Below, in pieces: positions 19,080 to 46,465 of a stretch of 46,465 bases of DNA. Within the stretch, counting starts at the first letter, position 1, and each line of letters opens with the position of its first letter. Made by a program: the position numbers and the translations under genes. Source of the stretch: Bacteroidota bacterium. Lineage in GTDB: Bacteria > Bacteroidota > Bacteroidia > Bacteroidales > JABHKC01. The stretch spans positions 1 to 46,465 of the forward strand of contig JABHKC010000044.1 of NCBI GenBank assembly GCA_018692315.1, written 5' to 3'. Below the pieces are notes generated by a model, which worked only from the letters and a program-made list of their open reading frames with translations, was not told the DNA's origin and did no database searches.

Positions 19080-20867
19080 ATGAAAACAATGTTCAAAATT
19101 TTTGTAGTTATACCTTTATTGTTTGTTGGATGCTCAACAACGGATTACATTAATTCAGGATATACAGATGACATATATTATTCGCCTGACGACCAGGAAG
19201 TTGAAATTGAAAAAGAATATGTATATGTTGATACAAATCAAACTAATCAAGAAAACTCAAATAATGAATATGTCTATAAAAGTGGCGGAATAGCCGAGGA
19301 AAACCAAGATTTTGAAAATAGAGATTATTCAAATTATGGTAATGATGAAAATTTAGAAAATCAGAATCAGGAATATTATGATGATGAGGAATATGAATAC
19401 TATCCTGAAGAGGAATATTATGATGATGATTTTGAATATGACGATTATTACGATTATCAGTATGCTTCACGAATAAGAAGATTTCATAATCCTTATGTCG
19501 GTTGTGGTTATTACGACAATTATTATACAAATTATTATATGTATAACCACGATCCATACTACTGGGGTTCAAGCATTTATTTGGGCTACAATTGGTGGTA
19601 TCCTTCATATGGATTTTATGGATCTTATTATAGTCCATACGGTTTTGGATTTGGTTTTGGCTACAATCCATTTTATTATTCCTATTATTCACCATATTAT
19701 GGATATTCTGCAGGATATTATCATGGTTATTGGGACGGTTACTATTCAGGAAATTACGGAGGAAATTACCATGGCGACAATTACTACAATAGCTATGACG
19801 GAACAAATTACTACTATGGACAAAGAGAAAATAGTAGTACAGATGGGATTGTTGATAGAGGAAACACTTCGCTTGGAAGAAAGTTTGAAAATTCAATAAA
19901 AGAAAATGGTGGCAATATTCATTACGTTTCTACCAATGGAAGTTTTTCGAATTCTGCTGCAATTTCTAGCACAAAATTACCTGTCGATCATAAAATAACA
20001 AATTCAAAAGCTCCTCAAAATTTGCCTACTGCAAGCAACTCTCAATCGAATAGTTCTGTACAGAGCGATGCTAAAAACATTAAAAACCCAAATAATAATT
20101 TATCAAATAGTACTACTCAGCCTACAAAAACTAATGTTAGTGAAAATAGTAAAATTCAAACTAATAGGACTATTTCTGAACAATCTTCAAAAAAGAATAT
20201 AGACCCAAGTTCAAAATATTCGAGTAACACTAAAACCTACCAGGATTATAATAAGGAAGTTTCGAAAAATACTCAATCAAGTAAAACAAGTAGTAATACA
20301 AGCTCAAAGCCACCACAATCAAAAAAATATATTTCGAACACATCTAAATATAAAAAGCCAAGTAATACTACTAAACCAAAATATAATAGTGATTCTCGCT
20401 ATAAATATTCTGATTCTAAAACATATTCAAAAAGTAGCACGAACCAAAATTATTCAAAACCAAAAAGTAGCACAACAAGCAATTCGAATTATAGAAAAAG
20501 CACTTCAACAAAGCAAAATTATACTAAACCTACTAAAACTTATTCTAAACCAAATAAGACCTATAATAGCCCAAAAAGAAATTCATCTTATACGAAACCA
20601 CGATCTAATTCAAGTAGTAGCAGCTCAAACCGAAACTCACGATCGAGCTATAGCTCACCGAGCAAAAGTGCAAATAAAAAATCATACAGTTCTCCGCGTA
20701 GTAGTTCAAGTTCAAGCCGTTCCAACTATTCTTCACCTTCAAGAAGTAGCTCAAGTTCAAGCCGCTCTAGCTATTCGCCCTCAAAAAGTAGCTCAAGTAG
20801 TTCATCTTCAAGAAGCAGCAGTTCATCTTCACGTTCTTCATCAAGTTCAAGCAGAGGTCGTAGATAA
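19080..20867 (+). CDS. Low-complexity Tyr/Asp- then Ser/Lys-rich lipoprotein
   Basis: About 595 residues. The signal peptide ends in the lipobox LFVGC. The mature protein has three zones: an acidic Asp/Glu/Tyr zone (for example EYYDDEEYEYYPEEEYYDDD), a Tyr/Gly-rich zone (SPYGFGFGFGYNPFYYSYYS) and a long Ser/Thr/Lys/Asn zone that ends in dozens of serines broken by Arg and Tyr. The tail would be strongly basic and disordered. No enzyme domain is seen. Such a polymer-like lipoprotein could coat the cell surface or bind the acidic zone of a neighbour, but this is inference. Open frames on other strands through this gene are composition artefacts. Confidence 0.75.
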   Translation: MKTMFKIFVVIPLLFVGCSTTDYINSGYTDDIYYSPDDQEVEIEKEYVYVDTNQTNQENSNNEYVYKSGGIAEENQDFENRDYSNYGNDENLENQNQEYYDDEEYEYYPEEEYYDDDFEYDDYYDYQYASRIRRFHNPYVGCGYYDNYYTNYYMYNHDPYYWGSSIYLGYNWWYPSYGFYGSYYSPYGFGFGFGYNPFYYSYYSPYYGYSAGYYHGYWDGYYSGNYGGNYHGDNYYNSYDGTNYYYGQRENSSTDGIVDRGNTSLGRKFENSIKENGGNIHYVSTNGSFSNSAAISSTKLPVDHKITNSKAPQNLPTASNSQSNSSVQSDAKNIKNPNNNLSNSTTQPTKTNVSENSKIQTNRTISEQSSKKNIDPSSKYSSNTKTYQDYNKEVSKNTQSSKTSSNTSSKPPQSKKYISNTSKYKKPSNTTKPKYNSDSRYKYSDSKTYSKSSTNQNYSKPKSSTTSNSNYRKSTSTKQNYTKPTKTYSKPNKTYNSPKRNSSYTKPRSNSSSSSSNRNSRSSYSSPSKSANKKSYSSPRSSSSSSRSNYSSPSRSSSSSSRSSYSPSKSSSSSSSSRSSSSSSRSSSSSSRGRR

Positions 20868-30953: not shown

Positions 30954-31110
30954 TGGAACTTCCAAAATTAGTAAAGGGAACTTCTAAAAATGCAAATTTC
31001 TTCGTTTTTTCAAAATTTCAAAATCCTCATTTACAATAGTAAACTGCGGTTTTGAAATTTCTTACGCCTTGAAATTTGCTATTTTAAGAAGTCCCCTAAA
31101 GTTGGAGGTC
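30954..31110. repeat. Hairpin (MITE-like) element, copy 1
   Basis: The core, 30976-31096, has terminal inverted repeats GGGAACTTCTAAAAATGC and, on the opposite strand, GGGGACTTCTTAAAATAG. The pairing continues inward through AAATTTCAAAA and ends at a short loop in catttacAATAGTAAAC near 31037. Almost the whole 121 bases can thus fold into one hairpin. Weaker pairing extends to 30954 and 31110. It codes for nothing and lies in the gap between convergent genes. A second copy is at 39017. Confidence 0.75.
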
Positions 31111-37789: not shown

Positions 37790-39028
37790 ATGAAAACAGA
37801 TATCTACAATTATAAAAATATTTCAACAGAGGATTACTACTATTCGCTTCCATCAGAACGAATTGCAAAATTTCCATTAGCCAAAAGAGACCAGTCGAAA
37901 TTGTTAGTTTATAAAAATGAAAATATCTATCACGACCGATTTTTCAACATTACAAAATTTATAGAAAAAGATAGTTTAATTGTTCTTAATAATACAAAAG
38001 TTATTCAGGCTCGATTGAATTTTCGGAAGGAAACCGGAGCAAAAATTGAGATATTTTGTTTAGAGCCTTATAAACCAAGTGATTATGAATTTTGTTTGAA
38101 TCAAACCAAAAAATGCGAATGGAAATGTACGGTTGGAAATTTGCGAAAATGGAAAAATGAAATTCTTTTGAAGACTTTTTCAATTGAAAATGAAGATATT
38201 AAACTTTCAGCAAAATTATTGAAAAGGCAAACTGAATATCAAATTGTCGAATTTAGCTGGAAGAATGAGAAAATTTCGTTTGCAGAAATTCTTGAAACTT
38301 TGGGTGAGACTCCTATCCCACCCTATCTGAACAGGAATGCTGTGGAGAATGATAAAAAAAACTATCAAACTATATATTCAAAACCGGAAGGCTCTGTTGC
38401 GGCTCCAACTGCCGGTTTGCATTTTACTGAACCAGTATTTCTGGGAATTAGCAAGAAACAGATAAAAATTGAAGAGTTGACTTTACATGTTGGCGCCGGG
38501 ACTTTTCGTCCTGTGAAAGCCAAAACAATTGGTGAACATGAAATGCATACCGAAACTATTTTTGTTTCAAAGAAATTAATAAACTCCTTGATTTCGAAAC
38601 TTGGGAAAATTGTGGCTGTTGGCACTACATCGCTACGTACGCTTGAAACTATCTATTGGCTTGGTGTGAAAATTATGGATACAAATGTCTTCAAAGAGTG
38701 TAGTTTTGAGATTTCCCAATGGGAGTCGTATAATTTGCCTCAAAATATAGAAACAAATGAATCGCTGCAAACCGTAGTTAAATATATGGAAACCAATGGT
38801 GTTGAAACTATTGAATGCAAAACTCAAATAATAATTGTGCCCGGCTACAAATTTCGAATTGTCAATAGCTTAATCACAAATTTCCATATGCCAAAAAGCA
38901 CTTTGTTGCTGTTGATTGCAGCTTTTATTGGAAATGACTGGAAAAAAGTTTATTCAAATGCATTAGAAAATGATTATAGATTTTTGAGCTATGGAGATAG
39001 TTCGATTCTGATTCGAGGGAACTTCTAA
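37790..39028 (+). CDS. queA: S-adenosylmethionine:tRNA ribosyltransferase-isomerase
   Basis: Transfers and rearranges the ribose of SAM onto 7-aminomethyl-7-deazaguanine in tRNA, giving epoxyqueuosine. At 412 residues it has the longer bacteroidetal form. Diagnostic segments are YYYSLPSERIAKFPLAKRDQ at the start, VLNNTKVIQARL, GSVAAPTAGLHFTEPVF, LTLHVGAGTFRPV and LITNFHMPKSTLLLLIAAFI. The usual end is SYGDA-hydrophobic; here the last codons, GGG AAC TTC and the TAA stop, come from a repeat element that begins at 39017, so the RGNF tail is probably acquired. Confidence 0.95.
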   Translation: MKTDIYNYKNISTEDYYYSLPSERIAKFPLAKRDQSKLLVYKNENIYHDRFFNITKFIEKDSLIVLNNTKVIQARLNFRKETGAKIEIFCLEPYKPSDYEFCLNQTKKCEWKCTVGNLRKWKNEILLKTFSIENEDIKLSAKLLKRQTEYQIVEFSWKNEKISFAEILETLGETPIPPYLNRNAVENDKKNYQTIYSKPEGSVAAPTAGLHFTEPVFLGISKKQIKIEELTLHVGAGTFRPVKAKTIGEHEMHTETIFVSKKLINSLISKLGKIVAVGTTSLRTLETIYWLGVKIMDTNVFKECSFEISQWESYNLPQNIETNESLQTVVKYMETNGVETIECKTQIIIVPGYKFRIVNSLITNFHMPKSTLLLLIAAFIGNDWKKVYSNALENDYRFLSYGDSSILIRGNF

Positions 39029-39300
39029 AAATGCAAACTCCTAGTGTCATGTCAAGCATAATCTTTCAGCCCAAGTTTTGTTCTTCTCCAGTTTTGCTTT
39101 ATAAAAAAATGACTCACTTAGCTTCGGCTATGCTTACTTTTTTTTATTTCGTAAAACAGAAAAATAATTGCAACTTAACCGAAACTTTATGCTTGACATG
39201 ACACTAGGTTATTTCAAAATTTTAAGATGCTCATTTACAAAAGTAAACTCCGCTATTAAAATTTTTTACGCCTTGAATTTTACTATTTTTAGAACTCCTC
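39017..39300. repeat. Hairpin (MITE-like) element, copy 2, interrupted
   Basis: The ends, GAGGGAACTTCTAAAAATGC and on the opposite strand GAGGAGTTCTAAAAATAG, match copy 1 at 30976. Internal landmarks are also shared: catttacaAAAGTAAAC, and TTACGCCTTGAA before the right end. Removing a 169-base insertion (39040-39208) leaves about 115 bases, close to the 121 of copy 1. Its left end forms the 3' end of queA. It lies between convergent genes, as copy 1 does. Confidence 0.75.
39040..39208. mobile_element. Small non-coding element with perfect 22-bp inverted ends, nested in a repeat
   Basis: CCTAGTGTCATGTCAAGCAT plus AA at 39040-39061 is the exact reverse complement of 39187-39208. The inside is also largely self-complementary, around an AGC-TTCG-GCT hairpin near 39129, so the whole 169 bases could fold as one long stem. 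It has no coding frame. Its ends interrupt the hairpin element of 39017-39300. No target-site duplication was evident. Confidence 0.75.
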
Positions 39301-44335: not shown

Positions 44336-46465
44336 TCATTCTACACTCATCATTTTTGTATCAGAAAAACCTTCAGAATTTAATCTATAAAAATAAACTC
44401 CCGATGGTAAATGTTTCCTTTCAAAAACAATCGTATGGTTTCCTGAACTAAGGTTTTGCGAATGAATAGTTTTGATTTTTTCACCAATCAGATTAAATAA
44501 CTCTATTTCTACAAAAGCCTTTTCGGGAATGTAAAAACCTATTTCAGTTGTTTGAGAAAATGGATTTGGATTGTTTTGAAAAAGTTCAAAATTTGATATT
44601 CCTTGTTCGATATTCAATATTTTTTCAGCAACAGCTATTTTATTTGTTTCATAAAATTCATCACCTTCAAGCCAGGACTCAACTTTTACCACATCCACAG
44701 AATTTCCATTCCAAATTTGGATTATATAACTCTCCTCGCCTATCATTCCATCAATTTCCTGCGAATATTCATCATCACCCCAAATTGAAATTGCAAGGTT
44801 TTTAGCTGTGAAAACTGATGAACCAACAAGTTTTCCACTTTCACTAAAAATACCTATTTCTGAACCAATTGGAGGTTCTGTTTCCCATGCTGTTGCAGGA
44901 ATTCCAAGAGTCATATTTGAGCCTGTGTTTAGAATTCTATTGAAATGCTGTGTTTGAGGAATTAATGCTTTAGATTTTGCGAGATTTATTGTATTTGCAG
45001 GATAAACTAAGGTATCGGCGTTTGACATCTTAATATTATAACCACTACCCGGTTGCATATCTCCAATAGCATTTATTCCAAATATTGGCCAATATACATC
45101 ACCTAAACCATTTTTTACAATTATTATATTATTTTCAATCTCAAGCAGTAGATTTTCAATTGAGGCAGAAGACTGCCGTAAATAGCCCACAAGATTCCAT
45201 GCAGCATGCAAATATATTGGGTGATTTTGAGGATTAACTATTGTACCATAAATTGTTAAAACAATTTGATTTTCAACCTTTACCATATATGCTTCACCAA
45301 TTATCATATCTCCTATCGCATTTATGCTAAACAAGGGCCAATATACTGCCCCGGCTTCGTCTTTTACAATTATTAATTCAGATAATATTACTGAAAATAC
45401 ATCGGATACATTCGGGCTTGTTGGAACAATAAAAGTTGATATTAAGCTCCAACTATTCATTAGGTTAATGTCCTGCGAAGAAAATGAATCTATTACAGTT
45501 ATATTAATTGTATCCGAATTAAAACATTGATTTTGATTTTCAACCAGAACTGAAATTGTATGAGTACCTACTCCATAAATTGATGCGTCAAACACTAAAG
45601 ATTGTGTTGTTGTTCCATTATTCCACAAATAGCTTACAAAACCTGAATCAGCTTCCAAGATTAATGTCTCCGTGATGTATAAAGTTGTATCCATACCTAA
45701 ATATATAACCGGCAAAGGAAAGACAGTAACAGATTGTGTTTCGGAATTTGTACAGCTATTTGTATCTGTAAATGTATATGTTATATCAAAAAATCCATCT
45801 AAGCCAGATGGTTCAAAGTCGTTTCCATTGATTCCACTTCCGCTAAAAGTTCCACCAACGGGCAAACCGGTCAATTGAACTGTAGGTTCATCAATGCAAT
45901 ATTCCGCAGCAAGTCCGGTAAAACTTACAAGCGGCAATGGAAATACCGTTACTGATTGTGTTTCGGAATTTATGCAGCCATTGGTATCTGTGTATGTATA
46001 GGTAATATCAAAGAATCCATCTCCGGCAGAAGGTTCAAAAGTATTTCCCGAAATTCCGCTTCCACTGAATATTCCACCAAGAGGTGAACCGGTCAATTGT
46101 ACTGTAGGTTCATTGATGCAATATTCTAAAGCAAGACCGGTAAAACCTACCACCGGTAATGGAAAGACTGTAACAGATTGTGTTTCAAAACTTGTACATC
46201 CGTTTGTATCTGTAAATGTATATGTTATATCAAAAAATCCTTCTCCGGCAGACGGATCAAAATAGTTTCCATTGATTCCACTTCCGCTAAATGTTCCACC
46301 AATGGGCGAACCGGTCAATTGAACTGTAGGTTCATCGATGCAATATTCTAAAGCAAGACCGGTAAAACCTACCACCGGTAATGGAAAGACTGTAACAGAT
46401 TGTGTTTCAAAACTTGTACATCCGTTTGTATCTGTAAATGTATATGTTATATCAAAAAATCCTTC
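44336..46465 (-). CDS. T9SS-sorted repeat surface protein, 5' end outside the window
   Basis: At least 709 residues are visible; the frame is open to the window edge. In order from the N-side: more than three copies of a 74-residue repeat (GFTGLALEYCIDEPTVQLTG to QSVTVFPLP); an Ig/PKD-like segment (about 80 residues); two copies of the YWP-x-[FY]-[GS]-IN-x-IGDM module; a module with PPIGSEIGIFSESGKLVGSS, IWGDDEYSQEIDG and YIIQIWNG; and a type A T9SS sorting tail (NNPNPFSQTTEIGFYIPEKA to GVYFYRLNSEGFSD and KMMSV). It is a probable large adhesin or matrix protein. Shared modules link it to the SUMF1-domain protein at 10779. Confidence 0.88.
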   Translation of the reverse strand, partial: EGFFDITYTFTDTNGCTSFETQSVTVFPLPVVGFTGLALEYCIDEPTVQLTGSPIGGTFSGSGINGNYFDPSAGEGFFDITYTFTDTNGCTSFETQSVTVFPLPVVGFTGLALEYCINEPTVQLTGSPLGGIFSGSGISGNTFEPSAGDGFFDITYTYTDTNGCINSETQSVTVFPLPLVSFTGLAAEYCIDEPTVQLTGLPVGGTFSGSGINGNDFEPSGLDGFFDITYTFTDTNSCTNSETQSVTVFPLPVIYLGMDTTLYITETLILEADSGFVSYLWNNGTTTQSLVFDASIYGVGTHTISVLVENQNQCFNSDTINITVIDSFSSQDINLMNSWSLISTFIVPTSPNVSDVFSVILSELIIVKDEAGAVYWPLFSINAIGDMIIGEAYMVKVENQIVLTIYGTIVNPQNHPIYLHAAWNLVGYLRQSSASIENLLLEIENNIIIVKNGLGDVYWPIFGINAIGDMQPGSGYNIKMSNADTLVYPANTINLAKSKALIPQTQHFNRILNTGSNMTLGIPATAWETEPPIGSEIGIFSESGKLVGSSVFTAKNLAISIWGDDEYSQEIDGMIGEESYIIQIWNGNSVDVVKVESWLEGDEFYETNKIAVAEKILNIEQGISNFELFQNNPNPFSQTTEIGFYIPEKAFVEIELFNLIGEKIKTIHSQNLSSGNHTIVFERKHLPSGVYFYRLNSEGFSDTKMMSVE
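45712..46465 (-). repeat. 222-bp tandem coding repeats
   Basis: Three full units plus a partial fourth of 222 bases (74 codons) lie within the surface-protein gene and continue past the window. The two rightmost units differ at very few positions: the visible end of the last unit is identical to the matching part of its neighbour, while the inner units have drifted. This gradient points to recent duplication or homogenisation. Confidence 0.85.

Follow-up and report, generated by a model that had tools for sequence, protein, structure and literature searches.

A MITE of IS630 type nested within an older element in a Bacteroidota genome, and a structured core that appears to be shared among elements with different ends

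The stretch of DNA analysed, referred to here as the window, comprises 46,465 nucleotides from a Bacteroidota bacterium (GenBank assembly GCA_018692315.1, contig JABHKC010000044.1). A queA-like gene (Queuosine_synth) lies on the plus strand at 37790-39028 and runs into an inverted-repeat element, the outer MITE (copy 2), which extends from 39017 to 39300 and has terminal inverted repeats of about GGGRACTTCTAAAAAT. The stop codon of the gene (39026-39028) is supplied by the end of this MITE, and it therefore appears that the element has replaced the natural C-terminus of the protein. Copy 1 of the same element is found uninterrupted in the window at 30976-31097 (repeat families D3 and D15). Several other copies show a 4-bp AT-rich target duplication outside GGGRACTTC...GAACTCCCC, for example TTAT/TTAT and ATAA/ATAA, and copy 2 is preceded by TCGA and followed by TTGA, which agree at three of the four bases of such a duplication. 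When the entire stretch was searched against its own genome, 47 matches were returned, made up of many copies of the outer element together with copies of a second unit that lies inside it.

This inner unit of 161 bp (39044-39204) splits the outer MITE and carries a duplicated TA on either side, the left copy (39042-39043) inside CTAG 39041-39044 and the right copy (39205-39206) inside CTAG 39204-39207. The perfect 22-base inverted ends noted in the preliminary description are present at 39040-39061 and 39187-39208 and match at all 22 positions. The target CTAG is itself palindromic, however, and consequently four of the 22 arm bases on each side (the outermost CCTA/TAGG) are flank and duplicated target. 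Once these are excluded the element proper has perfect ends of 18 bp, with the left terminal inverted repeat at 39044-39061 (plus strand) and the right at 39187-39204 (minus strand). An inverted-repeat unit therefore does exist as described, but of its proposed 169 bases only 161 belong to the element, the remainder being flank and duplication. Excising the inner element with one TA leaves CAAACTCCTAGGTTATTTC, which on comparison by eye is equal in length to CAAACTCCTGCGTTGTTTC of the closest outer copies. All 32 outer copies printed from the own genome are uninterrupted where the window copy is split; removal of the unit does restore the layout of copy 1, and the empty site that was to be sought in related strains exists as paralogous outer copies within the same genome. 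Three of the nine bases of the empty site differ (CCTAGGTTA in the window copy, CCTGCGTTG in the closest outer copies), implying either that the outer copy had mutated before the insertion or that repair altered the site. As the inner unit interrupts an otherwise continuous element, the order first read from the layout, with the hairpin element arriving before the inner unit, is upheld. The nest of the inner unit within an older outer element is real. Another nest is probably present in the same genome, where an IS1634-family transposase gene (NF033559, 1.8e-79) at 83-2057 of locus L036 (G000 C146) is directly followed by the end of an IS630 copy.

The inner unit is almost certainly an IS630-type MITE. 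It has terminal inverted repeats, a length of 161 bp, no ORF of 80 aa inside, TA on both sides and six copies of the window end class in its own genome. Three copies at unrelated sites are near full length and 97-98 % identical (C44, C153 and C179), and three are diverged (C145, C48 and C198), a recurrence beyond chance. The end is also found near contig edges; at one such edge (C182; also C185) the final 63 residues of an IS630-like transposase are encoded, and at another (C135) the opening residues of one. The genome search suggested at the outset, for the end and for an insertion sequence sharing it, thus recovers other copies of the end and pieces of a transposase. No DDE_3 match was obtained in the own genome, probably because the IS body is missing from the assembly, as is expected for a collapsed repeat. 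The 63-residue piece is present in 37 of 393 genomes of the order. In relatives, the IS630 ends consist of CTAGTGTCATGTCAA, then 8 bases, then TGACG or a variant (30 loci scanned). Both ends are visible in L082, L085, L087, L092 and L096 and in degenerate form in L093, and L082 is identified as IS630 by NCBIfam (NF033545 transpos_IS630, 8e-48). This bipartite end is common to the inner MITE and the IS630 loci of relatives, the same layout being seen for example in CTAGTGTCAAGTCAAGCATAAACTGACG of L164. The TA duplication likewise agrees with IS630, a family with a preference for the target CTAG. A non-coding unit bearing the ends of a transposon encoded elsewhere, as first proposed, accords with these ends, and movement in trans is probable on this sequence evidence. 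The proposal that perfect ends imply recent activity is weak as argued, since the ends of most family members differ slightly from each other (TGTA versus CATA) and the perfect match in the window copy is therefore partly accidental. The identity of the three near-full-length copies is better evidence for what may have been a fairly recent spread.

The interior of the element was studied across 84,980 species genomes with a pattern that specified nothing but the two ends and the distance between them (120-150 bases). This gave 62 stretches, mostly from Bacteroidota, plus one MAG contig each under the titles Chlorobiota, Desulfobulbaceae and Nitrospirota. The length with CTAG flanks is 165-172 bp in 57 of the 62, although 152-182 was permitted. 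Most of the stretches have a common interior, which is only partly present in L111 and is absent from L125, L138, L158 and L159; these four have IS630 ends and a similar length, yet unrelated interiors. An alignment of 28 diverse copies (A1; MAFFT), 25 from the pattern or the window and three others, with the same five loci excluded, folds into one interrupted rod of 56 pairs, at 34 of which both sides have changed. The observed alignment outscored all 500 shuffles on each of five measures, and when the partner is shifted by 1-3 columns the paired cells fall from 93.6 % to 38-48 %. The cells that are not Watson-Crick pairs are strongly asymmetric on the window-minus strand, with 197 G.U against 16 A.C. 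Because a structure predicted on the minus strand favours G.U, a strand-neutral structure was also built, giving 234 G.U against 83 A.C. For the core alone (see below) the strand-neutral counts are 121 G.U and 89 A.C, with one frequent A.C pair kept in the apical stem. When copies were folded singly, the minus-type strand was more stable in 20 out of 20, a set that includes L158, which lacks the core. For the inner MITE of the window the RNA-like strand is the minus strand.

A covariance model (R1) of the 28 A1 copies, all of the CTAG class, was run on whole genomes. Matches were obtained in 35 of 295 genomes of the order and 15 of 395 in the phylum; as at most nine candidates (order) or seven (phylum) were scored per genome, the copy numbers from R1 are lower bounds. 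Many of the matches carry ends unrelated to those of the CTAG class. The part held in common is the middle ~98 nt, which consists in order of GAAGTTATTTT, AACAAGGC preceding an A-rich strand, an apical GCATAGCC-N-TAGCTAYGG, TTTTTAACGNAG and AAAAAGAACAAG. GC-rich genomes of other families in the phylum (L202 and L205) have GC-rich stems and keep AAGGC, AACGC and the apical hairpin. In the window the core lies at 39075-39174 on the minus strand, and its apical hairpin (39119-39130, minus strand; TAGC-TTCG-GCTA when read on the plus strand) is the most conserved part of the family.

When 82 elements were grouped by their ends, 18 clusters were formed. The identity of the cores is no lower between these clusters (0.580) than within them (0.576). 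For the ends it is 0.385 between clusters and 0.603 within them; the former exceeds the shuffled value of 0.28, so that some end classes may be diverged relatives. By sequence alone, without the structure model, 25 of 30 other-class cores, when compared with CTAG-class cores, scored above the highest of 600 dinucleotide shuffles. The target duplications are TA in the CTAG class and a 3-bp TNA in seven sets of other-class elements. Among 34 elements checked, one of which (L240) is without an end pair, the TNA duplication is exact in 28 of 33 paired ends, and in 27 of the 28 where TNA is read on both sides. The ends of 60 elements were read out, two being without ends as they are cut by contig edges. 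The other-class elements, with one representative for each of 17 clusters, have 76 G.U and 12 A.C cells; since the model used to find and align them scores the core and G.U pairs favourably, their resemblance and asymmetry are partly selected for. A search for an IS partner of the TNA classes, using the end pattern in nine genomes and six fetched stretches, returned MITE copies and solitary ends and no IS, and IS630 is the only partner identified among transposases for the core-bearing elements. It is very likely that the core is shared across elements with different ends, and the comparison suggests that evolution has preserved the interior and not the ends.

A second model (R2) was built from alignment A3, which holds 45 of 52 cores reduced from the 82; L188, L197, L273, L251, L279, L144, L283, L212 and L221 were excluded before this reduction. 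R2 gives the core of the window 72.5 bits (E 1.5e-11), the inner element of the window being itself one of the 45 rows; the matching of R1 to other classes is independent of this. In the own genome there are 22 matches at E 0.1, all but one at E 5.1e-5 or better, and the 20 that were read out show three end classes, CTAGTGTCATGTCAAG (that of the window), GGCTTTGCTACGAAATAAG and GGGTTTGTAAATAAATAAAG. R2 matched 15 of 16 named genomes and gave 491 matches in all, with 86 in Flavobacteriales SZUA-72 (the maximum), 74 in the isolate Marinilabilia rubra, 20 in the Chlorobiota MAG, three in the Desulfobulbaceae MAG and none in the Nitrospirota MAG. Twenty copies sampled from SZUA-72 form six end groups, one of which may represent a boundary shift. 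In the phylum sample 13 of 395 genomes were matched at E 1e-4; the core family is thus patchy and not universal. The outer element was also considered as a member of this family, as both contain similar-looking motifs (CTKCGTT and GCCTTG), but the models give no support: R2 matched no outer copy (33 loci) and the best match of R1 has an E of only 0.025. Against Rfam 15 the window gave only MIR4208, at 30.1 bits compared with a gathering score of 140, which was set aside as a chance match for a long hairpin, and 11 loci gave none at E 0.1.

The best explanation overall, to which we assign a probability of about 0.75, is a trans-mobilized IS630-type MITE with a conserved structured core that is shared among end classes and is probably RNA. 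A non-autonomous IS630-type element entered a TA inside an older, unrelated MITE and duplicated the TA, and an IS630-family transposase, with which the ends and target agree, probably moved it in trans. Rather than being leftover DNA, the interior holds a ~98-nt structured core that is carried by many MITE families with differing terminal repeats and target duplications, as indicated by sequence, structure model and duplications. Such differences imply different transposases, those beyond IS630 being putative. The core would most likely be selected as a folded single strand, here probably an RNA from the minus strand, that is handled by a host factor, and new ends would have been acquired repeatedly around it. 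The covariation, the near-constant length, the conservation of internal loops and of the apical hairpin, and the predominance of G.U over A.C point to a folded single strand, most simply RNA. Orientation relative to neighbouring genes is unbiased, with 51 versus 51 at 3' ends and 42 versus 41 at 5' ends (102 elements; L111, L125, L138, L158, L159, matches below 140 bases and loci L228 and later were left out). Nothing therefore connects the core RNA with particular transcripts, and a function within a single type of host transcript is disfavoured.

RNA is somewhat favoured over DNA as the working form of the core. It is less likely that the core instead acts as DNA, with a hairpin or cruciform that joins both ends or binds a DNA-bending protein and so aids any transposase. 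The unbiased orientation, the near-constant length and the several kinds of ends around the same core would all suit such a role, but the great excess of G.U over A.C on one strand is not predicted by a double-stranded or symmetric cruciform function. An exchange of ends, as opposed to slow drift, has roughly an even chance. It is doubtful that a single ancestral element kept its core while its ends drifted with their transposases. Drift would account for the between-cluster end identity lying above the shuffled value and for the -AAATAA- tail common to several TNA classes; the shift from a 2-bp (TA) to a 3-bp (TNA) duplication, the independence of core divergence from end class and the occurrence of several classes within one genome all argue against it. 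If the ends were exchanged, new symmetric ends could arise via hairpin fold-back copying or via nesting as in the window. A more tentative extension is that the structured RNA-like module is the true replicating lineage, that two or more types of transposase (TA and TNA duplications) and many classes of end have captured it, and that the transposon ends serve as exchangeable adaptors.

A MITE is usually classified by its ends and regarded as an arbitrary deletion product of an insertion sequence. On that expectation the inner unit would be a plain deletion derivative of IS630 whose interior is arbitrary, and the resemblance between classes a convergence of AT-rich hairpins. The different interiors in four of the 62 end-pattern matches (L125, L138, L158 and L159) are in keeping with this; nevertheless it is improbable and largely refuted by the sequence-only comparison (25 of 30 above shuffles), by the retention of the core in GC-rich genomes (L202 and L205), and by R2 scores that do not exceed 20.4 bits elsewhere in the window or 18.3 bits over 55,576 bases of outer-element loci. 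An artefact of assembly or binning is scarcely credible: the genome is in 248 contigs with IS bodies missing, but the window contig is 46 kb, the TA duplication is exact at the junctions, near-identical copies lie on two other contigs, and related copies occur in many named genomes. With a conserved interior that shows compensatory changes and recurs under different ends, something selects for the interior. The core would, if this holds, define a family of bacterial mobile elements by a conserved non-coding part and not by ends, and it makes a case, open to testing, for a non-coding module that is tied to no single transposase and is either selfish or used by the host.

REPs and REPINs are also many-copy hairpin repeats, REPINs consisting of two short REPs and depending on a tyrosine transposase; neither such a transposase nor paired REPs are seen here. 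The IS630 family (NF033545) shares with the inner MITE the terminal repeat CTAGTGTCATGTCAA-N8-TGACG and the TA/CTAG target, and differs in that the MITE has no transposase gene. RUP of Streptococcus pneumoniae, of 107 bp and with proposed mobilization by IS630-Spn1, is likewise small, non-coding and multicopy, with IS630-like ends and TA insertion, and often lies inside other elements (PMC2229807, in the parts cited). It differs from the inner MITE in length (107 versus 161 bp) and in phylum, and no core common to other end classes is reported in those parts of the source. ERIC/RU-1 and Correia/NEMIS, by the descriptions in the portions used of PMC2229807 and PMC10969869, are similarly small and palindromic with TA at their ends, and their transcripts fold within mRNA and are cut by RNase III or RNase E; the present elements differ in their unbiased gene orientation, in a core that extends across end classes and in a transposase family known for one class. 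No description of these elements, or of a core common to several MITE end classes, was found in the limited literature searched (portions of PMC10969869, PMC2229807 and PMC4853749).

In some elements parts of the stem or the apical region are interrupted or replaced by short palindromes, for instance TCCCGAT-N-ATCGGGA, which form a third level of nesting. They are borne by L304, L310 and L312 in the own genome and by L029, L031, L164 and L286. Elsewhere in the window, three tandem repeats of ~222 bases lie within a long minus-strand ORF at 45699-46442, and short serine-codon-rich repeats (D4 and D9) are found in an ORF at 20687-20852.
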